Shown here: positions 7,686 through 55,722 of the stretch, one piece after another | Layout: the number at the start of each line of letters is the position of its first letter | Numbering within the stretch: the stretch's first letter is position 1 | DNA from: Amphiura filiformis | Taxonomy: Eukaryota > Echinodermata > Ophiuroidea > Amphilepidida > Amphiuridae | DNA length: 64,000 bases | Direction of reading: 5' to 3' | Assembly: GCF_039555335.1 (NCBI RefSeq) | Contig: NC_092635.1 | Location: 50,302,052 to 50,366,051 of the forward strand | Translations under genes and position numbers: made by a program | The notes under the pieces: generated by a model | Told to the model about the DNA's origin: nothing | The model's database searches: none | Seen by the model: only the letters and a program-made list of their open reading frames with translations

Positions 7686-7689
7686 TTAG

Positions 7690-9027: not shown

Positions 9028-9049
9028 GTAAACACAAAAGGAGTTAGTC
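9028..9049 (+). other. Possible 5' UTR part of the first coding exon
   Basis: A plausible splice acceptor (pyrimidine-rich stretch ending atatatcagcag) ends at 9027, so the first coding exon may start at 9028 and be preceded by an untranslated exon upstream. An in-frame TAA at 9029-9031 lies six codons before the ATG at 9050. This fixes that ATG as the first usable start in the exon. No upstream noncoding exon could be identified from sequence alone. Confidence 0.4.
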
Positions 9050-9214
9050 ATGCAGGACTTTAAGGAATTAGCAGATGACAATGTGTGGATAGTTGCTGCT
9101 GGCACAGCGGTAGTAGTAGTCCTAGGAACCACCCTCTATTGGTTAACACACCGTGGATCTAAAACGCGCATCATGGCCAAGTATGATTATAACAAACAGT
9201 CTGTGCTTTTGCCG
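9050..9214 (+). CDS. ACSL: ACSL exon 1 (residues 1-55): N-terminal membrane anchor
   Basis: The exon opens with ATG after an in-frame stop 19 bases upstream and ends at CCG followed by gtaagt, phase 0. Residues 11-33 are hydrophobic ([20 protein letters not shown]) and are followed by a basic patch (HRGSKTR), the usual look of an ACSL signal-anchor facing the cytosol. The last 14 codons, from the internal ATG at 9173 ([14 protein letters not shown]), match the short exon at 63261, so this ATG may start an anchor-less form. Confidence 0.88.
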
Positions 9215-15200: not shown

Positions 15201-18200
15201 AACCTGCTGTTTACTTGGAAGTTATGGCCAGGTCAACCACATTGGCTATGAAATAAACTCACACCAATTTCACTATGGACCTCACCACAATGGCCTCATC
15301 CCAATGCCATAGTTTAATAACCTCAATTAACCAGTCATACAGCAAAATTTGACCTCAAGTTGCGGAGTATGAGTTTGTGTACCCAAATTGTCAAAGGTCA
15401 TTCAATGAATGTGCAACTGTATTAGGGTTAAAGAACTGTGCCCTGATAGATGAGCATGTTGTGGATCCTAGTGTTTGCTTTATGAATGGATTGTAGGGTA
15501 CAGTGGTCCAATTTATCAATTGTTCATTTCTGAATAAATATTTTTGAAAAAGTTAGAGAGATATTAAACTTTCTTTCACAAAAATGTACACTGACCTAAA
15601 AGATTCCGGCAGAGTGAATCATTTCTTGCGGCTTAACCATTCTGTTCTTTAATTTGAATTCTTTCGAATAAAACTTCAGAATAAATTAGTTAATGGTTCA
15701 CTTGCCTTTTGTCTTCAATTTCACTTCCTGTCTTTTCTTATCATGCTATTCTGTTGTGTAGCAATAGAATGAATATAATACCAGGATTGGCACAATTTAA
15801 ATCAATTTTTTTTTTCAATCACTGATTTTAAATCGACTTTTTCATTTCTTACCATTTTTGATAAAATATAAGTTAATTTCTTTCTTAAATTGATTGTTTT
15901 GCTTCAATCCTAATGCTTCTACATCTTTCGGATACAATAAAAGTACCGCTATGATGTTTTTTCTTATCTATAGCTAAAAATTCATCTTAAAGATGCAGAA
16001 TTCAACAAGTTCAACCCATGATTTTACCAAATTTTTTCTTTGAAATTTTCACATAAACATGCTTTAATTTGTTTTAAATGCCTGATAGGGTTGCGCATGT
16101 GTCTAGCATTCCACTGGTCTCGTTTGACTTTATCATAGGGTATATAAAGCAGTTATTGGAATAATAAAAAATCTGGTATTTAAAAAATTTGTTTTTAATG
16201 CCAACCCTGTATAATACACAAAATAATCATCTCAAGAAAAGTAACTAACCTCCCTTAAATAATGGCCATTTTTCAAAAACGGGGTATTGTATTACAAGTC
16301 TGTAAAATGCATTGGAAGCAGAATTTATTTCTGCGCTTTTGACACTTAATTTGATACGATAGCCCAGAAAACAGATTTGAAAGTTGCACTTACCATGTTG
16401 CTTACAACAATACAAAAACACTCAGATATCATTACACAGATTTCCTTCCATTATACTGAATACAAATCAATAGAATTTACTGCAACTTTCAAATCTTGGG
16501 TTACATGATTTAAATGTACGCTGTGACATCAATATTAAGTCAATTGCTACAAATGAGGTGTCAAAATGTGCAGAAATAAATTCTGCTTCCAACGCATTTT
16601 ACAGATTTGTAATACAATCGCCCGTTTTTGAATAATGGCCATTATTTAAGGTGGGTTAGTTACTTTTTTTGAGATGTTTAAGAATAATAATTCTCAATTT
16701 GGTCAAAACAAGAGGTGCATGTGAGCATATTGGAAAGTTTATTTATATAGCAATGTTACCAAAGGGAGAGGGAGAGAGAATTGTTTTTGCCATCGTTTAT
16801 TCATTTGTTCATTCATTCATTCATAATTATGAATGAATGAATTTATAATTTATAAATCAAAACTAGGTCATTTTTGCAGATATAGTGAACTTTTTGCCAC
16901 CACAACATGTGCCAAATATTGATTCCTAGAGATGTGACAAATTACGCACAAATCAGCATTTTGAAAAATGGTGCTAATAATGTGGTGCGATCAAGCAAAA
17001 TCACTCTGAAGTCAGACATATTCAATTTTCAGTTTCTAATATGATTGTATACAGCATTTACAAAGCAACATTTTGCAGAAAACCCCATTGAATTTGGACA
17101 AGCAGTTCAAAAGATATGAGCAATTAAAGAATTTCCAAAACAATTGTTTGGCTATATCCCAAAATCAATATTTCTTACTTCCGACTGATTTTGCTTGATC
17201 ACATCACATATGCGAAAGTAGTTGCAAATGCTGTGACATCTATCCAATAATTCAATTTACTCAAAAAAAAGAGCATCGGGATGTGGTTGGGACCATTGGG
17301 TTTACCGGTTATTGTGATTTAAAGCAATTCTGTATTTTTGATGTTTCTCCTTGCAGGGTGAGGAGCGTATTCGCTGCTCTACACTCGTCAACCATGAAAA
17401 AGGACAGCACTTCATTGAGAAAATGTACGATGATATGAACACAGTATATGATACCTTACAAAGAGGCATGAAACAGTCAAGTAAGTATTTACTCCCAATC
17501 CAACTTAGGAAGCGTTCACAAGCACTTGTAAGGGGGGGCCTGATGCCAAAAAATTTCATCGTAAAAATTTTTCGGGGTCCCCCCTTTACAGATCTCAAAA
17601 ATTTCAGGGCCCCCCCTTTTCGACATGAAAATTATGGGTCAACCCCATAGAAAAGCATATAAAATCAATTTTTCCAGGAAAATTTGGTCATTTTTTTCAG
17701 GGCCCCCCTTAGGAGGGTCAACAAATTTCAGGGCCCCCCTTTTTGCAATTGGCCCCCTTACACAAGTGTTTGTGAACGGTCCCTTACGATGACTCATCTC
17801 GACTCAGACCACTTGATATTTGGTGACTTGTAACTCGACTTATGACACAAACCTCAAATGATTAAATTCAGATCATGATTTGGCCTGGTTGACTGGACTC
17901 ATAACTCGACCCCTCAAAGCCTTGACTTGTGACTTGTAGACTTGACTTGTGGTTCTATCATGACTTGACTGCAAGTTTGATCCAATCTTATAATGAGGTG
18001 ATAAACGGGTGTAGTCAGGGTGCATCCATTCATGGTGCATCCGTGATTCCTGTACTGTCGTCCCCCTTCCCCACCCCCCGAAAAAAGGAAAAATTAAGGG
18101 CTCGGTCACCCACCTTTGCACAGTATTTTTGTGGGACCTGATGAGTGCACATCACATTGCATTCTGAATATGAGGAATGTCATCCCTCGAACTAATCAAA

Positions 18201-21200: not shown

Positions 21201-24200
21201 AGAGTGTAGCAAGCAGGGACTTCTGCATATATTTAAATTGTCCAAAGTCTTTTTATTTTTAAGGCGCCTTACAAGTGTGTGCCCAAAATTACCCCCTCCT
21301 TCCACCTGCCAAAAATTACTTGTCCCCCTTTTGGCTTGCCAACAAATTCTTCTTCCCCCCCCCCAATTTTATCCTCCACAGGCCTCCAAATTATTGCACA
21401 GCCTTATTTTTATCTCTTTCAACTGCTATCACACTATATGGGAAATATGAATTAATTGGGTTGTTAATTGTTCAATTTGTTAATGAGGGCCAATCGTTCA
21501 ACGAAATGTGATGGTCAAAAACGGCTATGTCTACTCTGCATCCGGTACCGCACATTTTTTTTTAGCGCAGTATTGATATTTTTTGCATTTCGTGAAGGCA
21601 CCCAGCACCATCTGCAAATTGTTAGACACAGGTGATAGAACAATTGGCCCTCATGAATATCCTAGAATTTGCATTGCATACACAGCACAAGGAATTTGCC
21701 TGATGGGAGACTATCTCTTCTCTTGAATCTGTGACCATTTAGAACAAGATATTGAGCCTGGAATGTTATCTCAAAAATATTTTTTGTTTGTTATTATCCT
21801 GTGTAGATGATGGTGATTGTTTGGGTTGGAGACCTGGCCCAGGCCAGCCATACAAATGGATGAAATACAGTGAGGTAATAAAAGCAATGTAAAGCTAAAC
21901 TTGAAATAAAATATTGGTATATCCTTCATTATTTAAGCCGACATGAAATTAGCCTATAATTGCCAACACTTCATTGAGGGGTTAGATAGCTTTTATCCCA
22001 TGCTACATGTATATAATCCATGTCTTGAAGAATAAACTCTTGAGTGGGCTGACATGAAGGTAATACCTTTACATTTATAAAGATATCACAAATAAAAATA
22101 TATGACAAAAATGAAAAGATGTCGAAGTTGTGAAATGACCAAGAAAATGGGCAAGAAAGGTTATGCACACAAATATTATGTACTCCTAGATTTCTGATGA
22201 TATAAAAAATGTCCCTTCAACAAACTTTAATTAGTTTGTCATATTTCTCATTTAGGTGAATGCCAAAGCTGTACAGTTTGGTGCTGGTCTGATATTCAAA
22301 GGATGTGAGGCAGTCAACACAACCAACATTGGTATCTATTCACAGAATAGGCCTGAGGTAAGTCATCTTAAAGGGAATATGACAAGTAAACAAACCAACT
22401 AATACACACTCCTACTTGTAACAACCACACACCCTCCATACGTAACAACCAGCAAACAAAAATGTGATTTGAGCACAATATAGTTTTTACTACCTATTTT
22501 TTGTCTGAAATCTTATAATATTGCTTTAATATTTATTTTTCAGTGGACCATTTCAGATTATGGATGTCAGAGTTATTCTATGGTGGCTGTACCACTCTAT
22601 GACACATTGGGAGAAGAAGCTATGGTACACACTGTCAAATTGAGTAAGTACATGATGTCCTAAGAGTTCAAACCAATTCAAACCCACACATCTGAACCAA
22701 GAATGGAAAACATATGCAAGTCTTAGGAACATGAAGACATTGGAATGTAAGGAGTAAGAAGAAACTTTCTGTATATGAAGAGGTAGCTGGGTGACTGGTT
22801 ATTGAGAGTTTCATATATATGAAACCGTAACCAAGTGAAGGTCTTTTTAAAAAGCAAACCCCGCCAGAGCAGTTCTTCTGGGGTGAACCAAATCTGCCTG
22901 GTTATCAAATTAATTGGTGACAAGGTTATCTCTGAATTTGACTGGTGCTAATTGATGCAATAACATTAAAACATCAATTAGCACCTGTCAAATTCAGAGA
23001 TAACCTTATCTGTGATTAATTTGATAACCAGGCAGGTTTGGTTCATCCCAGAAGAACTGCTCTGGCGGAGCTTTCTTTTTAACAAAGTAAAAGAATGATT
23101 GGGCCTCTTAAACATGAGCCTGCACACCTGTTCTCTTTGGAGATGAGATATGTAGCTAGGTAGACAGGCTTCTTTTTTAAAGGTGGTCACCCCTATTAGT
23201 TTATGATATGGATTCTGAATTGTCTTCAAACTTACGTACAATGTCAAATATCATCCCTTGAAAATAAGAGTAAACATTGCTTATGTACCATGTGTATCGT
23301 TCACTCACAAACATTATGGTCAAGGTCAAGTTCATGCTTATTTACACAAACTTACAAACGTTACACAATGTAAAAAGTTCATAGTACACGATTAAATATA
23401 GATGACATCGTCTGAGATTTTGTTATCATTTGTGATAGCAACAAAGGTAAATAACAGTCACTACGATTTTGAGACATTGCAATATGTTAAGACACAATTC
23501 TTTAATCCCTTTATGCGTGTACGTTCATAGAGTGGCCTTTGAATATGTTGGGTACAAAAACTCATACCCAACAACTTGAGGTTAATTCTTGAGCTATTAA
23601 GGTTGGATGAAGGTTATTGAACTGTGCCATGAAGCATGGTGCTATTTTGGTTAATAGTGAGTCTTATGGAATGAGAGTCTCTTTTCAGTTAATGACCGCA
23701 AATAACATTGATCAAAGTTTGTACCTGTAAATGAATGCCAGATCCAAACATCAGAATTTAAGGATTTGATGATTTCTATCCAACACATATTGTAATCCTT
23801 AGCTTAGCAAATAATAACATTATCCGTAACTCCGGACAGTAGCTCCGGGCAGTAGCTACTCAAGTTCTGTTTGGGCAGGGAAGGCCTTATGAAGATTTGG
23901 ACCCATTAGTATACCTAAACAATAAACATAACATTTTTTGTGAAATTTAAAAACAAATTTGGAATTTTCAGAATTTTTTTAGTTAAATACAAAAGTAGTG
24001 GTTAAAATGAGATAAATTTGGGATATTTTTCAAAAATATTGAAAACTTACCCATTCATATACCAAACTTTACCTCAAAAAAGTTCATTGATTATATACCC
24101 AATCATCCCCCGTATGGTCATACACCCTCGGGCAGTGTTCAGCTGTTGACACAGAAGGGTTCCAAGACTTTTCCATGATTGTAGATCTATGTGTATTGAT

Positions 24201-27200
24201 TGATGTCAATTTGATTGTATTCTTTTAGCTGATATGACCACAATCGTATGTGATAATATGTCAAAAGTGCAAGGCCTACTGAAGCACAGGAGTGAGATGC
24301 CAACACTGCGATTGATCATCTTGATTGGTACACCAAGTGATGAAGACAGGAAGCTGTGTGAAGATGGGAAAGTAGAGATGATCTCCTTTGAGGGACTTTT
24401 GGAGCTTGGCAAGGAGAATCCAACAGATCTAGTGGTATGTATCTGTAAAGTCATGCAAAAAACCCATCCTGTTCTATGGAGGTCAGCATTGTTAGTTGAC
24501 TAAAGATGTAGCAGTGAAATAGAATACACAATAGGACAAATAAAAAATAAAGAAGCAAGATTTTGATATTTTTAACATACTTTTAGCTTAATAATGGAAG
24601 AAAATGGAATGGTACAATTATTAATGTCTGTATCTTGAAAAGAGCGTACTGTTATTGTTCTCAACTCATGATTGGTATATAGTAAACGTCACTGCATGTT
24701 TTGGGTAGTGTTACCTTGAAACATGTGCACCATTCACAGAATCACAGCATAGTATGCTTGCATGTAAAGGTGACACAATCGTAACACTCTGTCACATACA
24801 TAGACTTATTGTTGCTATCATTCTCAAGGTCAGACAAACTATAGACATACGATTCATATCACTAGGATCCACAACATGCTCATCTATCAGGGCACATTTC
24901 TTTAACCCCAATATAGTTGCACATTCATTGAATGACCTTTGGAAATTTGGGTACACAAACTCATACTTCGCAACTTGAGGTCAAATTTTGCTCTCTGATT
25001 GTTTAATTGAGGTTATTGAACTATGGCATTGGGATGAGGCCATTGTGGTCCATAGTGTATGTATGCTGCATCCAGTGTGAACATTCTCAAAATAATATGT
25101 CACATTTTGCATTTTTTGTTGTAGCTTCCAAAACCAGACGATCTGTGTACAATCTGTTTCACAAGTGGCACAACAGGTAAGTACAAAAATAGACATATAT
25201 GGGTTATTCCATTTGAAAACCACTCCCCTTGAGAAAGATTTGGGAGTTCCAAACAAATTCAGTAGCCTGATCTGGAATGAATCCTGATCTGATTCTGATT
25301 CTGATTAATTTTCATCCAAAAACTTACAAAATTACAATGATTTTCAAATTCCAAACAAATATCCTAAAGTAAGCTCTAAGTAAAATCAAGTAGATTTCAA
25401 CACTAAAGCTGAATTTATATTCGATTGTTTTTGCAGAAAAGCAGAAAATTCACAGGAATGCTCAGTGTTTAATTTTGTTTTCATAGTGTCGAACTGATCA
25501 ATCGATACCAATCGCTGAGGCAAAAACGATGTCACTTTTGCGAATTGAAGAAATCTAAACTCACTTATCACATAAATGCATTAACCAATCATTTCCTGCC
25601 AACTGGATTTTATTATTTTGCTAATTAATGTACATTTCTCAATCATTAACTTTTGGAGATGAATGAATTCAATGCAATAATTATCGACATCAGTGAATTA
25701 ATGTTCTAAAATTGTAAATTTGTGGCCTTTTGAATATTTTAATTGTCGTCCGCAATCGCGTTCGCTATGATTAGTATAAATGCAAAAGCGACTAACGATG
25801 CATCGCAAAATCCGGCAATTGCCAATCACTTTCCAAAAGCGGTGCATCACATTTGCTCAGCTATCGAGTATAAATCCAGCTTAACACTGTTTTCAGCTGG
25901 ATTTTAACACAAAAAGCACACAGTATAATCCACTTGGATTGACTGTTAAGTTCAACTGGATTGAGATAACAGTGACAACTTCCAAGTAAATCAAAAGGTT
26001 CTTATTTCTGATCCAATAAATTGCACTTACTGTGTACATTTTGATAATCGCTCTGTTATTGTTGTCAACACTGAATGAAGACTGCTGCTGAGAAATGGTC
26101 ATCGAATCACCTATTGAGTTCTTAGTAGTAGTCTTCATTCAGTGCTGACAAAGGTAACAGTGGTTATTGAAACATCACAGTAAGTGCAATTTATTGGATC
26201 AGTCATAAGAACCTTTTGATCGACTTTATTCTACCGAGTCTGAATGTTCAACCAAGTGGCAACTCCCACAGGAGGGTGTGAATTTCAAATAGAATACATA
26301 TAGCCCAATTTTAGTTCACAAGTAAGCAGGAATGTCACTGGCCTGGTCGGCAACAGCCAGCACTCATTGCTAATGACCGGCACTTAACCCTTAATTGAAG
26401 CCCACCCAACCAGCACTAAATTTGGCTGAACATACTGAATAATTCAATATTTGGTCTAGAACCCGTAATATGTAGTATTTTGTGCTTGAAGTATGGACAT
26501 TTTCAAAATATTACCGGCACTAATTATCACCCTAGTGAAAATCCTGCAAGCAAGAAACACATCTTGGAATATGTTGGGATAGTACCCATCCCCCCCAACC
26601 CACACTCCTTACCCTAACTCTAATGCTAATTTCAAAATTGCTATATTTATTATTCTATTACCTGTACTGTCTATTATTCAAAATTGCACACTGTGATTTG
26701 TCCAAGCGCATCATATGAAGATAGGTTATACACATACATAATAGCCCAGTGTTATTGAAATACTCCCCTGGACCGTGGAAACACCTCAAAAGAGCCATCA
26801 CTCAGGGTTGCCAAACCCGCGATTTGGCCGACTTTTGAAGATTTTCCCTGCGACTTTGGACAATTTCCTGTCCCATAGAAACCAATGGTTAAGAAAAAAT
26901 TTGGGCGACTTTTCAACATTGGCTCCCGCGACTTCCTATTATTTGGGCGACTTTTCGATTATTTGACCCGCGATTCGAGCTGAAATCTTTTGGCAACCCT
27001 GCCATCACTGTGTGTTGTCTGCTTTAATAGCCTGAATTACTGTCATCTCAGTGAAGCAAGTGTTTTTGCAATAAGATAATAATTTCAATTTCTATGTATA
27101 TTTTGTCAACAGGTGTACCAAAAGGAGGCAAACTGTCCCACAGAGCATTCATAGCACAGATAGCTGCTGTTCACACCATTGCTTCTGTATGTATTATTAT

Positions 27201-30200: not shown

Positions 30201-33200
30201 CTAAAAAACTATGTGCTATGCTTTAAAAAAACAAAACAACAGGCTATGTCCGATGCAATTTTTTTTTGCAATGTTTTACTCAGGGGCTTTTTATTTAGCA
30301 AGAACGCCACACCAAGTTACATGCCTTACGAAAACTATTCTAACCGTCACTTCCTAAACCTCTAACCTATGCTCTAACTAAACCCTAACCCTGAAAAATA
30401 TGCTAAATAATTAAAACCCTTAAAAACTTGCAAAGTTCTGAAAAATCATGATCACATGGCGTGCCGTGGCGTGACAATGTCAATGGTGCAAAATGGGTAA
30501 TGTCAATGGTGCAAAATTCAGCACCCCAAATGTTGATGTGCGCCACTAATTTACCGCTATTTTATCCTGCATTAAAACATCACCGTAAGTAAGGAGTACA
30601 AAATGTTGACTTTTATTTGTTGAGGAAACGCCAATATTTATTTGGCATGACATATTTCTCTGCTATACCGATATGAAATCGAGAAGTAAAATTTTTCCAG
30701 AGTCGGGAGAGATCTATATTGTCCTGCTATTTCATTTTCAGAGCCGTTACTTGCACGATGTTTCAACAGATCGGTATTTAGAGAGCGAACGATGTGATAC
30801 AGTTCGTGGAGTATTATTTTTGACATTTTTTCTTAAATGGTCGTAAATTGTTTTGTGTTTTTTTCTTAGTAACAACTGATTTTATCATTCAAAAAAAAAA
30901 ATAAATAGAAATGTGAGTTAAAAAATGTGAATTTTTCTGGAAAATTAGAAATTCTAGCCAAAATGTATGTCTTCCAATCCTTTGAGAGTTCATTTTAAAG
31001 ACATTGACACTTAGGTTTCAGAAACTATATCGAAGTACATGCCAAATTGTGAAATTTGTAGCATACAAAGTGGACATAGCAAGGTCTGATTCCAAGCTTT
31101 AGCTCTGCTCACTGTGTGCACCCAAGTAAAGAGCAAACTTTTCCAGCTTTTTAAGGCGTTTTAATTTTTGTTGTGACAGGCAAGATTTTGAGTACCAGTG
31201 CTGCTGCTGCTCTGTATGAAATATATAATGTTAGATTAGGACCAATGAGTCAGGATTATAGTTGGAAGATAGTTTGACTTTGGCAGAAGACAAGTTTAAA
31301 AAATATTCAAAATGCAAAAATTTCATAATTGTAACTTTCCATGACCACATTTGGAATGAGCATGAAAAATGATTTAAAATGAGTACAAACAAGCCTAGTA
31401 TTGGTTCAGCGATTCTTGAGATAACTATTGATATTTTGAGAAAATATCTCAAAACTTGGGACTTTTGGAAAGAGTCAGGATAAAAATAAAGATACTTTGG
31501 CTTCAGATTAGTATTCAGGAAAAACTTGATGGCAGGTATAAATACGTATTTAGGGTGACCACATTATTTTTTGTATTATTGTCTGTATCATTTGAAGGAA
31601 ATTCATGACTTTGTGGCGGAGGATACGCATCTTTCATATCTTCCGCTTGCCCATTGCTTTGAGAGATGCATGCAGGTATGTGTTTGGTGGAGCATCAGCC
31701 GCTAGCAAAACTAGTCTGGCTGTCTACCAGCACTGTGAAGAAAGTAGTGCTGTATGGAGCTGTATCCATCACCAGCGAAATTAGGTGGCTATCTACTAGC
31801 ACTGTGAAAGAAGTAGTACAGGATATCCCCAGATTGCTTAACCATTTTTTTATTTCAGTTTTATTTTCTGTACAGGAATAATTGGCTATTCCAGTTATAA
31901 TCCATACATTGGTTGTGGAAGACATGACCTTAGTCTTTCACACAGACAGGGTGTTAGCTAACCACCCATCCACCTGTTATTTTGGATGGTCAGTTTGTTC
32001 ATGGGACATGCAAAATTAATGCCTGTGACATTTGCTAAAGTCTAGAAACAATGCATGAATAAGTTTTGTGAACTCAAAATAAGACCAGATTAAAAAATCA
32101 AGGCAATAGCTATTTGAAGTGACTGAAACTCCAGAAGGGACATTATTCTGTTTTATGTTTACAGGGTCAAATTTAGACAGGCAGTTTTGGTGAAAATGAG
32201 GGGCACTTGTCAAATCCGAGCTAAGACCCTGCAAACAGGGAGTGTGAATTTCGAATGGGGTTACCTGTATGGGTGACTCCATTTTAATTCACACCCCCTG
32301 TGTGGAAGATTAAGGTCATGTCTTCTATAGGGGGTGTATGGATTTCAACCAGAATACCTCATATCTGGAGGTGCTGAGGAAATTTAACCTACAGCTAATG
32401 CGTGGTTTATGGTGCTGGTTTCTTTTTCTATTCTGAAGGAAATTTACCCACTAACAACAAAGGATACTCATGTTTCCTATCTGCCTCTAGCTCATGCATT
32501 CGAAAGGAATGTACAGGTATTGATACGTAGTTAAGACAAAGTTAACCATGTTATTTTTTATATTATCTGCATCATTTAAAGGATACCCATGAATTCACTC
32601 CAGCGGATACTCACATTTCATATCTCCCACTCGCCCATGTGTTTGAGAGAAACGTGCAGGTATGTGTTGTATGTGTGCAGCTATATTAGCTACTTGCACA
32701 GTAATAATGATATAGTAATTGACACTTTGTGTGGTATTGTTTTCCCCAATTGTTTGCCCTAGCCGGCACTTAATATCTCTATAAAGGATGTACATGCGTC
32801 GTATCTTCCATTGGCTCATGTATTTGAGAGGTGTATGCAGGTAAGGCGGAATGCGAGTTTTTGTTTCAGGCATTGTGAATGCATGTGAATGCATTGTGAA
32901 GGCATTGTGAATGCATTGTGAAGGCTTTGTGAAGGCTTTGTGAATGCATTGTTTTGTCACCTTGTACTATAGGGATGATACCTGATTGTACATACTTTTG
33001 TGTTATACTGTATAAAGATAGTGGAACAACAAGTTTCAATCGGCTAGAGTGGTGGATTAAACGGTACCCTACGCTACCTGTCAGAAGGTGGAGGTTGTTC
33101 CCAGCACTTGGCAAAAATCTTTGATATTTTTGGTTCCAGTTAGTGCCAGTAGTGACAGGTCGATACTAGTTTGTATTGGATTATTTCTGACACAATAGTT

Positions 33201-36200: not shown

Positions 36201-39200
36201 GAGTTTAAAAATCATATAATATACTCTGTACAATGCATTTATTTGGCCATTTTATGAGATAGTTTGGTATATCAGAATTTTGTGGCATGAAACAAATGTA
36301 ACCAAATTTCCACTGTTGAGAACTCTTCTAGATAGCTCATTAGATTATATGACATGATTTATCATATTTGTAATTAACAGCAAAATATATTAGATAATAT
36401 TTGCAATATATATATTTATATATATGACATGATCTGGTCCATGGGGGCAACAGGTGGCAAATTTAAAATTGAGATCAAGGCAAAAATATGAAATAAAAAA
36501 CAATAAAATACATAAGAAAATACACATAACTTTAGAACAAAGTATGCTAGACCCTTGGTGTTTACAGTATGATAGCCTAATATTTCTTTAAGGTAATGAT
36601 TATAGTAACTAACTCAATTTTCAAAAATGCCTCCTATGGCCCCCATGGAGCAGATCATGTCACATATTGTATATTGCCTAAAGTGGTGTTAATAATCTCC
36701 AAATCTTGTCATCTAGTAATACAGCACAATTATGTTTAAAATCAGAAATTAGCCATTTTCAAGGCAGAACATACTTAATCATTTAATAATTTTGAAATGG
36801 GTGCCAAGGTTTTTTCAGAATAATAAAGCTTCTTTTACAATGATTCGTATTTCATTAGTTCTTTTGTTTAAAAAACAAGCTTGCCACTCGAATGCATGAA
36901 AATGTTCATTATTTAATTTTCTTTTTACATTTTGACTGTTTTGAGTTTTAACCATGCTGTGATTGCCATTGGTCTACCTTGTGCAACTTATGCATGATAT
37001 AATCTTTTCCTGTGAACTTTTGACGAGAGTGTTTTAATGTACATTGTGCATTTACTGCGCTGTTTCTGATTGGCTGCTGAAGCGATCTGCTGTTATCGAG
37101 TGGAAATTTATGACTGAACTTGTGCGCCATATATGCGTTGTTAGCCTTGACTTTGGAACATCACAACTGATAGTTTCACTTGTCAAATGTTTACAGCAAA
37201 ATTTTTAATAGAATAATTGATTTTGGCTCAAAAATTGTCCCAATTTACAGATTTCTAAAAGTTACACTTCTATTGCCTCCCCCATTCCTTGAAACAGTTT
37301 GAAGTGTTGAGCGTTGGAGGTCGTATGGGATATTTCCAAGGAGACGTGAAGCTACTTACCGATGACTTGCAAGCATTGCAACCAACTGTGTTCCCATGTG
37401 TACCACGTCTTATGAACAGGATTTATGACAAGGTTATGTCTGGTGTCAACAGTTCTGGCGGTGTTAAGAAGGCACTCTTTAACTTTGCCTACAATAAGAA
37501 GAAAGCCGAAGTCTTGCGGTAAGCTCAGCCTGCCCTAATATGGTAAAAAGGGTGTATCTTATATGTACATCACTAAAAGTTCGTTCATACTACCACCGCA
37601 TTTGCGATGCGTTGCTTTGCGATGTGCTGCGTTGTCGCACTGCATCGTACTGCAAAATACTGCATTGCGATATCGCAATAAAGTTTAATACATTTTAACT
37701 TGGAAATGCGACGAGTTGCGTTGAGTTGCGGCAAAAGTAATCGATATATCGGCATCGCAAATCAACGCATCGCAAATGCTGTGGTATTATGAACGGACCT
37801 TAACATCACTAACACTTTGTTTTGCCATGGTTGAGGTTATTGTTTTTTAATGCTCTCACAAGATAAAAGGATGTAAACAATAATGCTGGTTTTTATACTT
37901 TCCTGTCGCTTACCGCTTTGCCGCTCTGACGATGATTTTGCTTTGCTGCGCAGTCGCACCAGAAATGCTAGCAGTGACCAGTGGCAAGCTGATATATCGA
38001 TCACTCCACCGCTTTGCCCAAGCGGCAGCATTGCTAGGAGTTGAATTCAAGTCAACTTGGAGCAGTTCCGCTCTGACGTATGAGAACACATTTTGGAGCG
38101 GTGCAGAGTGGCAACATTAGTCATGCTGCTGCCGCTACATAGTCGGGCAGCAAACTACCCAGTTTTTAAGGCCCGTGGCCTTTTAATGAAGACAATGTGC
38201 CACATATCCTAGCATGTTGTTTGGGTCCCAAGTAACATATTTATACATGTTTACAAAAATCCAGATGCAGCAAAAGGCGGCCATCTTGTTTTTTAAAATG
38301 GCGCCCATTTTGGCAAAATATTTCCAATATTTGTCAAACTGCCCCTTCCCAATGTGATTTTATTGGCACAGTAGTGATTGTTTTAGGCTTGTTATAGTAG
38401 TTTTGTCATGTTGGCATGTAGTAGCACCAATATTAATGATTTACAAATTCAAAATGGCTGCCAAAAATTCAAAATGGCTACCGAAATCAATTTATTTCCT
38501 TCAAACATACAATAAGCCTACAAGCCTGGTAACATATGAGATTGGACACGTGACATGAATATTAAAATAATAACACACACAAATCCCATACTTAATGCAC
38601 ACCCCACACCTTTACACCCCGAATATTTTGTATATTATTTTAAAGTGCCACAGAAAATGTATCAATAACGTTTTCTTGGCTCATACGGGTATCCTTTATA
38701 CAAGAACAGTTGGTGGTGCTAGTTTGGGCTACAGGCTGTATTACTAATCCATAAGCACATGGCAGCAGGGGGTATGTGGTTCTTCAAAAAAATTTGAACC
38801 ATTTAAGGACAATTTTGCCCAAATGTGCCCAGTTGGTTGCACTGGTCTCCACTGAAAACCCACCCATCGATATACCAAAATCGCTGAACATCTTCAACAT
38901 CTTCAAACAGGAAGACCCCCAGGACATGGCATTGGCCTAGTCCTTCAAGAATGACTCTCGGCTTGAGAAGTTTAAAACTATACTAGTACTGTGACTAGTA
39001 TTGAGGCAAACCTCGGCCTTCGGCCTCGTTGTTCGGCTTCAATACTAGTCACAGTACTAGTATAGTTTTAAACTTCTCAAGCCGAGAGTCATTCTTGAAG
39101 GACTACATTGGCCAGACATTGAGAGGTATTGAGGGGTATTGAGAACAGGGTAAAAGGTACCGAGTGGTCCCAGAAATGGTTTATGGGTCCCGGGGATGGA

Positions 39201-42200: not shown

Positions 42201-45200
42201 TCATACAGTAGACTAGCCTTTGGCAAAAAACAGTAACATTGTTTTTTTTTCTCTTACAGCCTTTTTCCAATCAAGAAAAATTAAAGTCCCTCAGTCATGG
42301 CAAAAGGAAGCAAATTACTAGTGATGTAAATGGATGGAAGATACACCATTTTAGCATATTAGGACTGCCAATGTTGCTCTTAAAAATTATTATACAAATA
42401 TTTAATGCTTATGAGTACAATGGGAAGAATATTTTCATGAGGTGAAATATGGACTTATCCAAAAGCCTTGTTGAATAGAACCGTCCTTATTTCACCAAAT
42501 GAAAATATTCTTTCCATTGAATGAATAAAACATTCATTATTTGTTTTATATAACTCATATATAAATTCCTTTTCTTCCACTTCATTTTGTAAATCACTAG
42601 GAAAATAAAATAAATTAAAAAAATCTAAACTATGTTTATTTTAGAAGCGACACACACCCATTATTGGTGAGTTGAGGTGGTCATCGCGAGCGCTACATAC
42701 TTGCGTTTGTCAGTGTTGCTATGGTAGCTGCGTTGCACTCGCGCGGTGTGCAATCGACCTCTTCTAAAAATAGCAAAAATAATCAATAGTAATTGTGACC
42801 GTTCACACGGCGAATGAGCCGTAAATTCCTCCCCAGTCAATTTTGTTTTATTTCGTGTTTAAAAATAAACATCATAAACTTAAAATGGTATATCATTTGA
42901 CTTCAAACGATATCCAGAAGCGGGGTTATGGTTTGTTAAACTTTGCTCCTTCAACAAAATTATAGCTTTTTATGTTTTTACATGCGTCTCTTTTTCCACA
43001 TTGCTGGCAATAAATATCAAACAGTCATAATTGGCGGTCATTTCAAATCATCCCCAAGTCAACGAGGTTTAAGAAAGTTACAAAATACAATGCCTGGTAA
43101 CCCACCACTTGAACAGGATTTAGCAAAAGCAAACAAAGACCAGAGCTATTAAAAGTTCTATAGCCATCTAAGGTAGAAGCTTATTATCCACTTCAACAAT
43201 AGGATTATTGATTAGTTTTTGACTATCAAAATGAGACAGATGTCGGGCCAGCTTAAGTTACCGATGAATCGACCTTCGTACACATTTTACACCGTAACGC
43301 AGAATACAATTTAGGGAATTTACGGCTCATTTGTGCTGCCGGGTCACAATTGACCAATCAAAGACAAGAATCTTTGTATGAGTTATATAAATCTTTCTGT
43401 ATTAATTGGATACATTTGTTGTGCCAAATGTAAAATTGAAAGAGCAAGAGTGGATATGCAGCTGTGGCACATATATTATCATATTGCTCATAATAGTAAC
43501 CCCTACGTTAATATGTGAAGTAGTCCAGAATGTGAAATCTAATATATGCTACTTCTTACAGTAGAACAGTTATGTTTTTTCTTTCGTTTTTATACACAGT
43601 GGTATTTGCAGGACCGATTCAATTTGGGATAAAATAGTGTTCAAGAAGATTCAGGTATGTGTACTTTCTTTCACTCACATAGTTTTACTTATTCATAACA
43701 GGTAACTGAATTTATTTTGTATGTGAACTCTAAAAAATTCAAAGTTGCATTTGATTGGTGGGCGCTACTTCCCTGTTGATATGCCGAGGAACTTCTGAGG
43801 TTATAACTTACGAGTCGTAGCCTTGCTAATATTCGCCAGTGAAGTGTTACGTGTAATCCGATTATCCCTATGTTAACTGGAACACGCTTTTGAGTCCTGA
43901 ACCATGATCAAAATGATCGCAACACAAAGTCTATGGCATGTACTATCAATTCCAAAAGGTGTGTGATCCAGTTACTAGGGAGTTTTGTAACCACTTCGCT
44001 GGCGAATATCGACACCAAGTTGTGCTATGAGATTTCTTGCTATGTGGTAGATATAATGTTACAACTTAACCACAGACTTTGTCCAAAGTTGGACTGGCCA
44101 ACGTTGTTTCCCCGTAAGTAGATGAACTAATACCAAGTATACTGTGTATATATTTCTACAGGCTTTGCTTGGAGGAAGAGTGCAGTGGATGGTGATTGGC
44201 AGTGCTCCTATCTCTGCTGAGGTACTGCTCTTCTGGAGGGTTGTCATTGGTTGTAATGTAAGTTCTATATTTCTAAAGTTTTGATATATTGATACTACTT
44301 TGGAAACAAGCCAAAAGTTTGATGACATTCTGTTAATAAAAGTCCTTTCGTTCGGTCAAAAAGGAGGGGTCAAAAAGTTTGATTATGGTTTAAAAAAACA
44401 AGTTAAATTATCGGTCAAAGTTGAACTTTCGAGTTTGAATTTTCAACATTTCAAACTTGCCTGTCAGGGAGGGAGTGAAGCAATCATTAGCTTCCTAACG
44501 AAAGTTGTTTCGTTTAAAAGACGTCATCAAACTCTTGGCTTGTTCCCTGTAAGCAAGATAGATTGACTACTTGTAAATTTTCTGTCCGTAAATTTGAGGC
44601 TTTTTAGGAAGGTCATACCTAAACTTTAACTATCAATTACAAGAAATCTGGGCAGTGAGACTCTGTTGTTGAAATGATCCAATCTACGAACAAAGTGATA
44701 AAAAAATAGGTGTAACCCCTAAAGTCTATAAATATAGTTGAGGTGACTGCTGACGTCATTGCCTTGCAGTATGCATGTGCATCATCCCAATTCCCATTGT
44801 TCCTTGCCTGGCAATATGTGTGTGCATCATATTTTGTCCAGGGCTTGTGCTTTTATAACTCCCCCCAAATCACAATAAGGCTATTGAACAGTGTAGTGGT
44901 TGTATGCAGTTCGCTCAAGCATTTTGATATACCAGTCCCTTGCCTTTGTTGATAAATATTGAGGTCAACTCATCTATATAATGTTAATGCTTCTCCGCCT
45001 GCTTCTGTACTCCAAAACGCTCCAATGGAACCATTGAGGTTTTGTGGTATTTTATAATGATCAGAAAGTATCCAACAGTTTGCTGAATGTAGTTTTTATG
45101 AGTGGTGTTTCATCACAAGCAGAAACTTTCGCTCCAATGCACTTAACCTGTGTGTGATTATCTTATTTTGTCAACAAATTGTTTGTAATAAGGGATTATT

Positions 45201-48200
45201 TGTTTTCTCAATATTCTTGATAGATCCAAGAAGGTTATGGTCAGACTGAGTGTACAGCAGCTTGCTCCGTAACACTAGCAGGGGATAACCTGCCTCAGGG
45301 ACACGTAGGACCACCAATACCTTGTAATATCATGAAACTTTGTGATGTACCAGAAATGAATTACTTTGCTAAAGATGACCAGGGTGAGGTAAGTATTGCT
45401 ATCTAGGGTTTATCAGTTTCAGTGCAGAGTCAGTGGAGTACCGTGCAATATTTCTGGTGGGGCATTGTGTAAAGCTGCTAAAACTCTTTAGTAAGGTGAC
45501 ATGTGCATGAGTGGAAGAGAGAGAGAAAGATAGAGAGCGAGGGGTAGAGAGAAAGAGGAGGAGAAAGAAAGAGGGAAGGAGGAAGGAAGAGGGAAGTGAG
45601 TGGGTTGGCAAAATTTCCAGCAGCAGGTACTAGATAAGTCTTTTGAGCTCATGAAAGCTTTTTGAGTAATGGACATGCTTTATATGATCTGATATGGGAG
45701 AGAGAGTCAGAAACAGCCTATTGATCCAAGGGTCAAGCCCTAAAAGGGTAAAGTTAGGGTTTATGGCATTTAGGGCTAGGATTAGGGTTAGGTTTAGTGT
45801 CAAGGATGGGTTTAGACTAAGGTAAAGGTCACAGTTAAGATTAGAGCCAGTCAGAGATATGGTTAGGGTTAGGAATAGAATTAGGTCCTAGGTTATAGAT
45901 TAGGCTTAGGGGGAAGTTAAGTGTTAGGATTAGGATTAAAACTATGTTATTGAGTTTTTGGACTTCTGACCCTTCGGACTACATGTATCGAGCTGTAACC
46001 TCAGGGAGAGATAGTGAGATTGAGGCACACAGCGAGTCAAAGAATCAAAGTCATATCAGAATGAGTTAAGTAGTGAGACAGAGGGATGATGATATTGATA
46101 TATTACTCAGTGCACCTTGTTTATGGTGTAGAATGTTCCAACCCATCGTATTACATCACGATCTAAGACCTATCACTAGTAATAGACAATAAATTCACAG
46201 TTGATAAAAAAAATGAAGTAACAATTTCTTTATTATTATAACACAAACTTTATTCATAATCTGATAACTATTCATTCATAATATGTGGTCTCTTTTCAGA
46301 TCTGTGTGAAGGGTCCTAATGTATTTTCTGGATACCATAAGAATGAGGAGAAGACTAAAGAAGCAATTGATGAAGATGGCTGGTTACATACAGGCGATAT
46401 TGGTGTATGGCTTCCAGTAAGTTGATTGTGTTTGATAAGTCTTGTTATTGGTGTTCTTTGTATGTATGTATGGTGTTCTACTCCTTAACCCTAACCCAAC
46501 TAGGTCTCACTAAAGCTCACTTTTAAAACCACTCTAAAACCACTCTGCGTGCATGCATTCCACGGGACTTGATGACGCAATCAGCCCAAGTCATATACAC
46601 CCAGGGAATCGTTGGCTGGGCCAACGTCACCTGTGTGGCTACATGCTGGGGATCTTCTGCATGGCATGCGAGGGTCCCAGGCTCAAATACCGGGGGTGCC
46701 AAGTGACTTTTTTCTTCACCTTCTCTCCTTTTTCATTTCTTCTTTCCCTTCCAATAGCAAAAAAAAAACATGGGTAGGGTTAGGGTTAAGACATACAGTT
46801 TGGCAGTAGCTTAATCAAGATGATAGAACTACTACTAATATATTCATCAGGTTTGTTGGTAAACATAAAAGATTTTAAACAAAACCAAACTTTAACTGAC
46901 TATTGATGGTTTTGCCGATCATGGTCGGTAGGCATCATCAGAATGATGGTTGTAGATCCTCCTGGCTGATAATTACACCCTCTCCTGTCCGGATATGTCC
47001 AACCGGATCCAAGTAAGGATCTACAACAATCAGATGGCCTACCATCCATGGTAGGCAAAACCATCAATAGTGAGTGAAAGTTTGGTTTGTTTAAAAGAAA
47101 TCTTTTATAATAAGATGAAGGTTAGGTTTTAGGGTTAGGGTTATTTTATGCAAATCTTTGTAAAAAAAACATGTATTAAAAACAACTTTCAGGATTAGAA
47201 ATCATGGTAAAAATGAAATGACATAATAATAAAAGTTTAAAATATGGGTGGTACTTGCTGCAAGTGTGCTTTTGGCTGCTTTGACCTTCTGCATTTTGAT
47301 GCAACAAAGTGTGGGGGTGGTTGAGGCTGTTAATTGGGTCATGCACCTTTAATGTTCTTAGTTATACAATAGTTACCTTTAATGTTCTTAGTTATGCAAT
47401 AGTTGAAATCAACAAGTTCAGAAATAAATTTGTGGGAACTTTGCAGATGGTACATTACAGATATGATTTTGGGAGATTATTCCTGAGCTCTTGTACTACC
47501 AAACCTCATCAGACAACTGACCCACTGAGCTGGTCACACGATACATGGCTAACATTTTATTCTTTCCTCTTCAGAATGGTTGTGTAAAGATCACTGATCG
47601 CAAGAAGCACATCTTCAAGTTAGCTCAGGGAGAGTATGTTGCACCAGAGAAGATTGAGATCCTCTACTGTGAAGAACCACTGGTTGCTCAGGCGTTTGTG
47701 TATGGAGAAAGTCTCAAGGTAGGATATGGCCAGAATGTGGTATTTGTTTAATTCACTAACATTTTTACTTCCTAATGCCATGGTTGAGGATATTATTATT
47801 ATTTTTAATAATCCTCACTTGATGAAAGAGCACCTGTGAAAAAGTCCTACTGTCCCAATTTCCACCAAGGTTAAACTGTTTCACACAACCTGTGTCACAG
47901 TTTTATATATGGCTGTGAGTCATAGGTTATCTCTAAGGATATGGAAAATAAAATCAACTCCTTTGGCACATCTTGCTACTCTGGATAGTCAGTCTCTAAA
48001 GAGATCTATACAATCTGACAGAGACAGCACCACTTGTTGAGAAAGCCAGGACTCATCAATTGAAATTTGTAGGGCATACACTCTTACTTGCTTGGCGATG
48101 AGCCTGTTAAAGAGTATGCATTGTATGTCCCAACCTATGGGAAGAGAAAGACCGTTGATTAGCCAATCAGCGCGATTTTTTATCGCCTGTGTGTTTACGA

Positions 48201-51200
48201 TTGTGTACGCGATACGCACAGCCCAGACCATGGAAGAAATAAAAAATTAACTTTAGTGTATACATTTGGTTGGATGGCCAGATCACAAGGGGATCAATGA
48301 AAAAAAAACTGAAATTGGTTTAAGGGCTGGGGTATGAACGTTTGGACAGTATTTATTTTGGGACATTAGAGCACATCAGACATATCGAATTGCATTCTGA
48401 ATACGAAGAATGTTCTTCTGATATCAAATAATTTTGACTTTTGAAATTCGCAATTTAATACACATTTTATGGCAAATCATTAAAATTGATATTTTGATAT
48501 TTAACAGTACTTGAAGTAAACTTTATAAATCTGATGATTTATACTTAAAGTGTATGTAGGTGGGATGAAAAGCCGACGATCAATTGAAAATTTTGACCTT
48601 TCATTATTGAAGATATGGATTTTTTCCCAAAACACCAAAAAAAAATTAGGTCTTTTGGGAAAAAATCCATATCTTCAATATGAAAGGTCAAAATTTTCAA
48701 TTGACCGTCGGCATTTCCTCCCTGCTACATACACTTTAAGAATATATCATTAGATTTATATAATTTACTTCGAGGACTGTTATATATCAAAAATTCGAAA
48801 AATGTCAAATTTTTATAATTTGTCATAAAATTTGTATTATATTGTGATTTAAAAAAATGAAAATTATTTGATATCAGAAAGACATGCTTCAGTATTCAGA
48901 ATGCAATTCGATAGGTCTGAGGTGCTCTCATGTCCCACAAAAAATACTGTCGAAACATAATAAACGCTCATTTTGGATCCCTTAAGTGAAGTTTTGCAGT
49001 GTTCATACTCACTTGAATTTGGAATTTTTACTTGTGATAGTAATTTTATAACCGTCTTATTTTTAACCGAACTTTGACAATATACTTGTTTGAAGACCCT
49101 CCCTTACTACTAATTTGTTAGTAACATAAAATGTTTTTAAAAATTGTTTTCTGTTTCTATGAACCATGACAAATAGTTTAAACATCAACATGTTAAAAGT
49201 ATAGACAGTAAATTGATATTTAAAATGCAATGGGCTGTTCCATTTAAAATCCACACTACCCCTGTGGAAGATTTAGCTAAAGTCTTCCACAATGTGAGTA
49301 TGAGTTTGGAATACAATAGACAATTGGGTAACTTCCATTTGAAATACTCACTCCAGTTGTGTACGATATAGGTAAAGTCATAATACAGAGGGAGTATGGG
49401 TTTCAAAATGATTAACCCTGATCAATTACATTGGAAAAACATACTCCCTCTATGGAAGATATTTCCAAAATCTTCCACAGGGGTAGTGTGGATTTTAAAT
49501 AGAACTGCCCAATGTTGCATTGCACACTGTACAGCCCTGACCTCGTTTATAGGAATCAGTGTTTTTTGGCTGTGTGATCTTGAAAACATATATTTGTAAT
49601 GATTTGGCACCTTACTGTCATGATTTGAAGCATTTAGAAGGATATATCTATGTTGCACAAAGTACTCAAATACCATCTTTCAGTGTTATTAAACCATGAG
49701 TTATATGCTGCAGGGGTGTAATTTGTCTGGATTTTTCCAGATTTTCCGGATTTTTTGTGGCCAAAATTATGCAATTTTATTGATTTTCAGCCCGTTTCAG
49801 GGTATTTTTGCCCAATTTCATGCTGTTTTTCTGGATTTTTAACTATTTTTTAGTACCCCTGATGCTGCTGTTTTTCCCTTAATCCGCCAATACTTGGTCC
49901 CATAGTGGTTGGGTTATACTTACTTGACTGTTCATTCTTGTGTGTATTGCAGGCAAGCATCATTGGTGTAATCGTACCTGATGAAGAAGAATTAGTCAAG
50001 TATGGCAAGAAAGAAGGGCTTGATGGGGACTTCAAGCAACTCTGTGCAAAGAAGGTAAGTTGATTACAGGCCAATGGTACGAAGGGTCAATTAGTCTAAA
50101 AACCCAATAACTTAGTTATAAGCTCTTGGGTCCATTTCACTCAACTTTTAACCCTTCGTAACTCAAGTAACTGTTTGTAAAGTTACAAATACCCAATACT
50201 AGACGTAACTTTACGAAGGGTCCCTGTAGTAAATCCCTATTACTTACGAAAGGTACCATTCGTAATTAAGTTAAGTGAAATGGACTTTACGACTTGTCGT
50301 AAGTTTCAAATGTTTTCGAGACTTACAAGCTTCGTAAAGTTAAGTGAAAAGGGCCCCTTATCCTTGCCATAAGCCAGCAAACAGGTTTTCCACCTGAATT
50401 TGGTTTCCTAAATCTATAATTTCAAATCTGTAAAATTTACTTATGTGATGTACATATTTCTTCATTTCTTTTATGATGCAGGAAGTTAAAGATGCCATCC
50501 TTAAGAGGATTGTACAACATGGAAAGAAGAGAGGGCTCAAAGGATTTGAACTGGTAAGAGGGAATGTTAGCTTCAAGTAAAACACAAATCTTTTGATACT
50601 AGCACAAACATATAAACAAACCAGGTGTTGGCCGCATTGCATTCTCTAAATTCAGTAAATTTTCATTGTCAACGTGTAATTGAATGGGATTATTTTGAAA
50701 TTTTAAAACGCTTGAAATATCACAAACAAATAGGCCTATGTTGATAAATAATATAAATACAAGCTAAAACCGTTGGGGTTCGATAATGAACCCCACAAAA
50801 CTAACTGAGTATATTGGAAAATGCCATACGGCCGGGCGGTTTCACAAGTTGCCGGCTCGATCATGTCATCCGCCGCCTGAACAAACGTGTTATCCACCAT
50901 CACCGTGTTCCTCAATGCTGTGAGTTGGCCTGAAAGGTCCCCTTGTAACAGTGCAGAATGTTGGGTGAGATAAGGCCATTTTTTCAGAAAATTCTTGGTC
51001 ACAAAATGATGTATGGAAATTTCAATCAATTTCATTGTGAGTTTATTTTCGATTTCGGAACACGATCAATTCTGATGTCTTCCGATCCATTGATACCCAA
51101 ATTTCTTTCGTCCAAACCAGTTTTGACCAGATATCAATGGATCTGAAAAGATCGGAATTGATTTTGTTTTGAAACCAATTTGATGGAAATTTCCGTACAT

Positions 51201-52387: not shown

Positions 52388-52884
52388 CCCCCCTTGCTCC
52401 ACATACTAGCAAGAAGCTTGACGACAGACCTAGAGTAAATGTGTGTACTCTTGGAATCTCCCTGGACACTTGGAAACAAGCAAACATTTGCTTGTCATCA
52501 TCTTAGAAGAAAGTTCAGAAAATAGGAGCCCAAGCTGGCTGTGTCATGAAATAATAGCAAGATTTGGCTACATGTTTTGTGTGTGAATGTGTAGATGGGA
52601 AAAAGAAGCTGTTTGTTCATTGCCAGGATAAACTGCTGTTGGAAACTAAGAGCTCTGATACCCGACTTCCTAATGAAGTACATAACAGTATATAGCTTAG
52701 CTTATTTAAACAAGTTAAAAACATGTTAAGTTAAAAATTGATAAGCTGCTACAGATACATGTACCAAACACGTAGCTAAATCTCTCTAATATAGGGGTTA
52801 AATACTAATTATCAAAGTACTAACAAAAATGCAGCAAATAGGAGCATGAGCTGTGTGTGTCATAAGTTGGAAGTACTTACAATC

Positions 52885-53070
52885 AGCTGTTCCAGTTGAT
52901 TTCCATACACCTTATGGAAGACATGATCTTAATCCTCCACACAGGGAGTATGAATATCAAATAGGGTTTCTTGAATGGGTGATTCCATTTGAAACCTACA
53001 TCCCCCTGTGTGTGGGAGATTAAGGTCATGTCATCCATGGGGGGGGGGGGGGGATTTCAAGTGGAATAGC
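52885..53070. mobile_element. Palindromic MITE in the 3' region
   Basis: gctgttccagttgatttcca to gatttcaagtggaatagc are inverted, with tggaagacatgatctta and taaggtcatgtcatcca inside. A run of about 15 G follows at 53040. Confidence 0.75.
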
Positions 53071-54097
53071 TCCATGATGGGTACCATAAACCATATATAA
53101 GGTATACCTATGCTTCATGTATCCAGACAAAGTGTAGTATATATCTGCATACACCACAACTGTATAAATATGTATTGCAAAGATGATGACGTCTTGATCC
53201 AGATCATGGATGCTAATTAGCGCACGCCAAGGGTTAACTAAACTAGAAATTGCATATGTGCTGTCCAGGAATGTGCACACGATAGCGAGGGATTTTAACT
53301 AAGCCTTTGCCCCTCTATCAAGTCGTGACTGTAATAAGACCAAGCCTTCGCCTATTGTTGCACATGCCTCATGTTGCCATTTTCAAAAGCGTTTTACAGA
53401 TATTTATTATTTTTTGAGTGGTATTAGTAAAATGTCTATGCAGGAAGCTCAGTGATTTCATTACCCAGTATGGCTCGTCTTTTAGTTTGTGCCTCATTTT
53501 ATATTTAAAAAAAAGTAAAAACCTCTGCGGTGACCTGATTTTGAAAGGAATTTAGTTTGCAGCAAGGCATAAGATGTACTTTATCAACCTAATTAGTGCC
53601 CCTCCTGCAATTAGCGCACCATGTGAACTTTTCTACGGTACGCCTGTTAAGTGCCCATGTTTAGTGCACTTTTATCATTTCCAGTCCAGCCAATCCAATG
53701 CACAAACATACGAAAATGTAAGTGATAATATGTAATGAAGGTAAACAATTATGATGAATTATGTCATGCAGTACTAATAGTATCTCCTGTCGCACAAAAA
53801 CAAAGAGGGACTAAAAAAAAAGAAAAAAGTGGAAGTAGGTCAGTAAATTTAGGGTTCATTTTTGCCAGTGGGAATTTTTAGATTTGTCAATATTGATATA
53901 ATTAGAATGTAAACACATGTAAACAGTAGCATCGTATTTAGGTACAAAAAGGTGGTGGTTGGAATTGGACTACCTCAGTAGCAGTACTAATATGGTAAAA
54001 ATTGAGAGAGGCGAACTGATAGTAGTGCTCTTTCTAATATTACTTGAAATTGCGCAATTTTGCCACATAATTGCAAAATTAGCACTTACTGGAAATG

Positions 54098-54268
54098 GGT
54101 TATTCCAGTTGAAATCCATTACACCCCCGTATGGAAGACATGACCTTAATCTTCCACACAGGTTTAACGTGAATTTTGAATGGGTGACTCGATTTGAAAT
54201 CTACACCCCTGTATAGGAGATTAAGGTCATGTCTTCCATTGGGTGTATGGATTTCAACTGGAATAGCC
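54098..54268. mobile_element. Palindromic MITE, best copy of the 52885 family
   Basis: gggttattccagttgaaatc is mirrored by gatttcaactggaatagcc. Inner tggaagacatgaccttaatc pairs with gattaaggtcatgtcttcca. Confidence 0.8.
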
Positions 54269-55639
54269 TAATAATGGAGTACATTCTGCATTTTTCCTTG
54301 GGAGGACTACATGTAAGATATAAAGAGTTTCATCGAAAAATGGGATATACCCATTTTTAACCAATTTGAGATTTATGCAAATTAAGCTGCTAAAATATAA
54401 AGTACATAAGAAAAAATGTGATACTTTTGACCATATCTCAAAAAGTATACTTTGGAGTTTAATAATTGAAGTGTCATTTTAAAAGCACCATTTTGTACTG
54501 TATGATGGTGATCTTAACAAAAAATGTCAGAAATGGCATTTATTGCATTTTGCAATGAAACTCTTCATATGCTTATTCTGCATTATTACAAACTTGTGAG
54601 TTGATTTTCTATTTTATAAAACCAAGCAGGATCAAAGTTCAACTCTGAATAAGGATGAGTTTTACCAAGTTGGGAGCTGTATATCAAAAAGTGAGCGTCA
54701 ACTAATAAACATGGATGTTCAATAAATATGTACTGATGTAGCAACTCATGCATGGAGGGGGCAGCATTTAGACTTATAGTTATTTGGGAACTATGTGGGT
54801 GTCATTAACAGGTTAAAGGTCAGTGTGTAGGTGCCAAAATGATAATGATAAACAGCATTTTAGGCTTGAAGTGATTTTGGAACTAATTTGGGGGTAAATA
54901 GAGTAAAGGACAGTTCACTGTTTTCACTGCATTTTCCTTTGTCCCAGTTTTAGGTCACAATATTGCCCTAATTTTGGCTAATTTTCATGTTATGAATATT
55001 GCACAATTTGTCCCAGTAAAGTTATATTAGTAGCAGGTTGGCAGGGCAATTTGGAAATTTTGCCCCCCAGCTTGTTGGCACCAGTATACCCCTGCTCCAA
55101 TTCTCTGATTAAAATGGAGAATTTGCCACTTTATTGTATAGGTTTTAGCCCTATGAGTGTTCCCTAGATCACTTCAAGCATAGTGAATTGTGATACCATA
55201 TTTGAATCATATGTCTTGTTTTGATGCAGATATTTGTTGTATTCTTGATTATAATATCAAGAAAAAGACCTTTATTTTATATATTTGTGTATATATTGTT
55301 ATATGAATGTTTACACAAACAAATGGTTGTATTAAATTTGGTGAAGTACCAGTACTTGAAAATGCAATTGGAGTGTTCACTTGTTAATGTTTTGAATAGG
55401 GAATGTAGTAGTGGTTTTGTTGGACCAGAGGTGCACAACTTGTTTTTCCTTGGGTGTAGTTTCAGCTTTAAAGCCTTGATGTTCGATCTTTTTACATTTT
55501 TAGATTTTTCTTTTTTTCTTCCAAAATGATTATATGCAATCATTATGAAAGTTTCCAATACATTTGGACATGTAAAACATTGGGAATTTGCAAAGAAACA
55601 ACATCATAAAGTTCACCTCTATCACTCGAAATATCTCGC

Positions 55640-55722
55640 AGAGTTAGTCTCCTACGCAGCTAGTTTGGTTACATGTGGAGGGAGCGCAACCAAACTGGCT
55701 TCGTTAGGAGACTACGATTTGA
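55640..55722. repeat. Palindrome, about 35-bp arms
   Basis: gtctcctacgcagctagttt pairs with aaactggcttcgttaggaga. A second small palindrome (gacatattatcataatc/gattatgatatgtc) follows at about 55732-55768. Confidence 0.7.

Follow-up and report, generated by a model that had tools for sequence, protein, structure and literature searches.

One long-chain acyl-CoA synthetase (ACSL) gene of the brittle star Amphiura filiformis holds four homologous, intact copies of the exon that encodes the fatty-acid gate. These copies probably constitute an expanded, mutually exclusive cluster, in which copies 1-3 would be used as well as copy 4, the gates would be included one at a time and the choice of gate would alter enzyme activity. 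Splicing would join exon 8 to one of the four gates and then to the exon that begins at position 37298, and the product would be up to four 692-residue enzymes differing only in the 26-residue gate. Such gate variants would in turn alter activity or substrate handling. One brittle-star gene may thereby yield several enzyme versions from four gate exons, compared with the two described in mammals.

The window, that is, the whole 64,000-nucleotide stretch of A. filiformis DNA that was analysed, contains one complete ACSL gene on the + strand (9050-52387; Table 1). With a single gate exon, the gene comprises 18 coding exons that encode 692 residues and no internal stop. Seventeen exons were located by tblastn with an approximate human ACSL1 query and by manual reading of splice sites, which gave AG/GT borders and a continuous frame. 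The first coding exon was positioned by tblastn with P0006, the NCBI protein long-chain-fatty-acid--CoA ligase 1-like isoform X2 of A. filiformis. The first intron starts with GTAAGT, and exon 8 terminates in phase 0. When copy 4 is used as the gate, the encoded protein differs from P0006 at six residues, none of them in the gate. Because P0006 matches the AMP-binding domain PF00501 (E 4.5e-80) and the window gene is intact and otherwise the same as P0006, the gene belongs to the ACSL family; its best matches place it with the ACSL1/5/6-like long-chain acyl-CoA synthetases. Among the best 60 of 150 matched solved chains, none is named ACSL1, 3, 4, 5 or 6, and Drosophila CG6178, named long-chain fatty-acyl-CoA synthetase, is present (E 2.8e-19). 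Exon-by-exon tblastn of the window produced no convincing second copy of exons 2-18 (stray matches had E 0.034 and weaker), and the search with the full P0006 query, in which the first coding exon was covered, revealed no second copy of that exon. The stretches 1-9049 and 52388-63260 were covered by the list of open reading frames and by ACSL tblastn.

Table 1. Coordinates of the ACSL gene, its gate array and the associated relic within the window.
Feature	Position	Strand	Characteristics and basis
First coding exon, MQDFKEL...QSVLLP	9050..9214	+	tblastn of P0006, 100% over residues 1-55
Coding exons 2-8	17357-17480, 21807-21874, 22256-22357, 22544-22643, 24229-24434, 25125-25176, 27113-27186	+	AG/GT, frame, tblastn
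Relic exon end (CAG) and donor (GTATAAATACGTA)	31533..31548	+	5' of gate copy 1; alignments
Gate exon copy 1	31598..31675	+	26 residues, AG/GT, singly in-frame in gene model
Gate exon copy 2	32439..32516	+	26 residues, AG/GT, singly in-frame in gene model
Intron between gate copies 2 and 3	32517..32581	+	65 nt, shortest of gene
Gate exon copy 3	32582..32659	+	26 residues, AG/GT, singly in-frame in gene model
Gate exon copy 4	32763..32840	+	26 residues, AG/GT, singly in-frame in gene model; identical to gate of P0006 (isoform X2)
Post-gate coding exons, first five	37298-37518, 43600-43654, 44162-44257, 45224-45388, 46300-46416	+	AG/GT, frame, tblastn
Post-gate coding exons, last four	47575-47718, 49953-50054, 50482-50553, 52250-52387 (incl. 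stop)	+	AG/GT, frame, tblastn

The initial annotation had described four 78-bp exons at this locus, each running from phase 0 to phase 0 with an AG acceptor, a GT donor and no stop, and translation together with a check of the borders reproduced their coordinates exactly. Its identification of these exons as ACSL gates also stands, as all four have 26 codons, carry the consensus D-x4-Y-LPLAH-x2-E and reside in one intact ACSL gene. Inserted one at a time into the complete gene model, each copy preserves the frame (4/4). Pairwise, the copies are identical at 14-17 of 26 residues and 44-55 of 78 bases. Their mutual likeness is not a product of chance, since tblastn of one copy against another across the 64 kb gives E values of 1.5e-9 to 1.5e-6, whereas outside the array no copy has a match in the window stronger than E 0.073. 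An independent repeat search recovered a four-copy, 59-nt family at the gate exon positions. A fifth copy was absent from both strands of the window when [YF]LPLAH and relaxed forms were searched, and no additional copy was found between exon 8 and the exon at 37298. The four copies are neighbouring internal exons that agree in length, phase, splice sites and homology, the features by which mutually exclusive clusters are recognized in the available text of PMC3228551.

The contrast between Phe and Tyr gates, within which the cluster had originally been framed, does not describe this array: every copy is of the Tyr type (4/4), and a Phe-type copy was found on neither strand of the window. The gating Tyr is accompanied in all four by a His three residues earlier (position 316). 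Thirteen of the 26 gate positions are invariant, including D9, H11, S13-Y14-LPLAH and F21-E-R, and the copies vary at positions 1-8, 10, 12, 20, 24 and 25. Within the otherwise fixed core, position 12 is L, V, I or A and position 20 is C, A or V. To judge from the structures of luciferase and bacterial synthetases, position 20, directly after LPLAH, presumably lies near the acyl pocket. With Tyr and its partner His constant throughout, any tuning must stem from the entry segment (residues 1-8) and positions 10, 12, 20, 24 and 25. In human ACSL6, a Tyr gate is active when paired with His and a Phe gate when paired with Leu, whereas the combination of Phe and His has little activity; isoform activity is also set by residues besides the gating one (PMC2868784, available text). 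This pairing is not universal, since among the best 120 relatives, a list rich in bird ACSL5, His stands three places before the gate in four of five Phe gates (including that of the A. filiformis paralogue P0008) and in only 22 of 115 Tyr gates. Three stickleback ACSL1a proteins (P0093, P0107 and P0117) combine a Phe gate with a His three residues earlier, contrary to the human ACSL6 pairing.

The gate copies look old and kept by selection, because the gate core has stayed conserved despite extensive divergence at synonymous sites. Between copies, pS is 0.58-0.93 and pN 0.18-0.34, with the same direction in all six pairs; these raw proportions are given because dS was not computable for four of the six. 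Fisher tests of the contrast yield p values from 8e-8 to 0.025, two of which are weak (0.012 and 0.025), and the tests are approximate, being based on rounded counts over only 26 codons in six pairs that share sequences and are not independent. Amino acid change is distributed unevenly along the gate, with pN of 0.05-0.20 in codons 9-26 and 0.37-0.68 in codons 1-8. For copies 3 and 4, the direction is reversed in the first eight codons (pS 0.26 < pN 0.68). Overall, the copies appear to have been long maintained for their protein sequence, with an entry segment that is free or diversified; the test is silent on when each copy was last used.

Evidence on how the array is spliced comes from the annotated protein and from the introns. 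P0006 carries exactly one gate, that of copy 4. Its name, isoform X2, implies at least one more isoform; the cluster to which it belongs contains four sequences. Protein searches for fragments with the other gates returned no isoform with copies 1-3, one giving six matches among six candidates (best identity 60%) and the other 92 among 489 (best identity 58%), all of them distant proteins. The reading frame is no safeguard against double inclusion, since 78 nt equals 3 x 26 and either two gates or none would keep the frame. The introns of the array measure 763 nt (copies 1-2), 65 nt (2-3) and 103 nt (3-4), the latter two being the shortest of the 20 introns listed; the next measures 186 nt. 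The 65-nt intron has two YTNAY branch-point candidates, at distances of ~29 and ~44 nt from its donor. This intron fits steric exclusion of the joining of copies 2 and 3, because both distances are under the 50 nt below which a branch point is considered too close to its donor (PMC5740500, available text). It is probably too short to splice, and a steric block to joining copies 2 and 3 is possible. In the intron between copies 3 and 4, a branch-point candidate lies ~62 nt from the donor, and both this intron and that between copies 1 and 2 could be spliced. As these two are not sterically blocked, strict exclusivity of the cluster would require a further mechanism.

Several repeats occur in and beside the array. 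Inverted-repeat arms (59 nt, 78%) lie at 31887-32356 in the intron between copies 1 and 2. They were considered as a splicing structure and rejected, since similar stretches at ~2.1-2.5, 49.2-49.5, 52.9-53.1 and 54.1-54.3 kb of the window indicate that they are probably a dispersed repeat. The intron after copy 1 also contains two direct repeats of 39 nt (31717-31824), 82% alike, whose starts are 69 nt apart. A tandem repeat with an 11-nt unit (e.g., TGTGAATGCAT) begins 12 nt past copy 4 and forms seven overlapping 33-nt copies (32852-32960).

The gate exon copies originated by duplication, and part of this history can be traced. The relic exon end and donor 5' of copy 1 match the end and donor of copy 2 (CAG, then GTATTGATACGTA) at 14 of 16 bases. 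Copy 1 with ~60 nt on its 5' side resembles the 65-nt intron before copy 3 with a score of 60, against scores of at most 49 in 5000 shuffles (p <= 2e-4) and of 19-29 for 18 other intron ends of the gene in the same flank comparison. The resemblance starts at the relic. In its simplest reading, it suggests that copy 1 derives from duplication of a block that spans the donor of copy 2, the short intron and copy 3. The relic donor raised the possibility of a fifth, degenerate gate exon 5' of copy 1, and the best overall alignment does extend beyond the relic on its upstream side, although heavily gapped. This reading was rejected, as the 160 nt ending at 31535, when tested separately, resemble none of the copies more than chance would allow (p 0.39-0.90); the duplication thus seems to have carried over no more than the exon end, donor and intron. 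The likeness of the downstream flanks of copies 1 and 3 is not significant (p 0.096). A gate-peptide tree built from the four copies plus 14 other gates (18 rows, 26 columns) leaves 11 of 15 inner branches open and weakly joins copies 2 and 3 (82/83). In contrast to this tree, the bases and the upstream flank group copies 1 and 3, a conflict behind which mosaic copying or gene conversion is possible.

Other accounts of the array differ in how many copies reach the mRNA. Copy 4, or a subset, might alone be spliced in, the remaining copies being former or rarely used exons that have not yet decayed. The single annotated product of this gene examined in A. filiformis does use copy 4, and by eye the copy 4 donor, GTAAGG, is closest to the usual GTAAGT (copies 1-3 have GTATGT, GTATTG and GTATGT). 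Moreover, the final 60 nt of the intron leading into copy 1 contain no YTNAY branch-point candidate, but three other introns of the gene lack one as well. Leftover exons also agree poorly with copies whose synonymous sites have diverged, yet none of which has acquired a stop or a frameshift or lost its AG/GT, and among which amino acid change is suppressed in all six pairs; we regard this account as quite unlikely. The joining of two or more gates in one mRNA as a tandem gate would be compatible with the frame, as every copy is a multiple of three and the gene model stays open even with all four joined. The single gate of the annotated protein argues against it, as do the probably unspliceable 65-nt intron and the best 120 relatives, 118 of which have one gate by the exact motif (the other two match a relaxed motif and were not counted for copies). 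A tandem gate is accordingly very improbable. The chance that the array is an assembly artefact is negligible: it is known from one assembly, but no sign of an artefact was found, the copies differ at 23-34 of 78 bases, far above allelic difference, and outside the gate the gene equals the public protein except for the six residues.

A different question is whether the choice of gate matters to the enzyme. All four gates could be used singly and yet be functionally equivalent, so that the choice would entail no substrate tuning. The invariance of Tyr, its partner His, LPLAH and FER is consistent with equivalence, as is the wide variation among the first eight residues, which would fit weak constraint. 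However, separate long-term upkeep of four equivalent gates would not be expected, positions 12 and 20 vary in a core that is otherwise fixed, and in human ACSL6 non-gating residues contribute to activity (PMC2868784, available text). Equivalence therefore seems unlikely to us, and the expanded, mutually exclusive cluster of gates with differing effects on activity is the explanation we prefer. A more specific form of it can be put forward tentatively, as a possibility on which we would not rely: the array would act as a four-way regulated gate selector, in which the Tyr/His pair stays fixed while splicing alone exchanges the entry segment and a small number of core positions, so that one gene could serve various acyl pools, among them the very long polyunsaturated 24:6n-3 that is typical of ophiuroids. 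Brittle-star fatty acids reportedly include 24:6n-3 at 2.6-15.5%, and 20:1n-13 is another prominent component (PMC9865275, available text). A flexible acyl gate would fit such lipids. The terms ACSL, acyl-CoA, isoform and alternative splicing do not occur in the available main text of the A. filiformis genome paper (PMC11310086).

A second A. filiformis ACSL, P0008, begins head to tail downstream of the gene, where its first coding exon (MADYDHNNQSVLIP) lies at 63261-63302; no other P0008 exons were seen in the window. The P0008 gate is Phe with His three places before, the pair that is poorly active in human ACSL6. Identity to P0006 is 73% for this paralogue and 76% for P0007, and the Pfam AMP-binding domain is found in both P0006 and P0008.

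If all four gates are used, the gene would represent a natural four-member gate series in an otherwise constant acyl-CoA synthetase. Such a series would help reveal which residues other than the gating Phe/Tyr set activity and chain choice, a role left partly open by the work on human ACSL6. It would also provide an example from lipid metabolism of a multi-exon alternative cluster that retains a trace of its duplication.

The closest known counterparts are the human genes. Human ACSL6 has a mutually exclusive pair of gate exons of 26 residues, with a corresponding pair in ACSL1, and the ACSL gate consensus is D-x4-(F/Y)-LPLAH-x2-E (PMC1543647, available text). The Ex(F)/Ex(Y) exons of these genes encode the same segment and consensus as the brittle-star gates and are likewise neighbouring homologous exons between constant ones (Soupene and Kuypers 2006, PMC1543647; 2010, PMC2868784); the length of 26 residues, stated for ACSL6, is also shared. 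The human genes differ in having two copies, one Phe and one Tyr, whereas A. filiformis has four, all Tyr with His. Alternative use in human is documented by cDNA, whereas in A. filiformis it is deduced. Even in human ACSL6 and ACSL1, strict use of one gate only is no rule, since variants that skip both exist (PMC1543647). Single-gate ACSL proteins, such as human ACSL3, ACSL4 and ACSL5, those of starfish and the second Amphiura ACSL, belong to the same enzyme family and, in the proteins examined, have one gate each, with Tyr in most and Phe in P0008. In the literature searched (titles and abstract openings, with few subscription papers), no ACSL gene with more than two gate exons was reported. 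Clusters of more than two homologous internal exons for the same protein segment do occur in insect Mhc, in Drosophila Dscam and in the cluster of four in human CD55, according to the available parts of the sources, but in contrast to the A. filiformis ACSL, these genes do not encode fatty-acid-activating enzymes.
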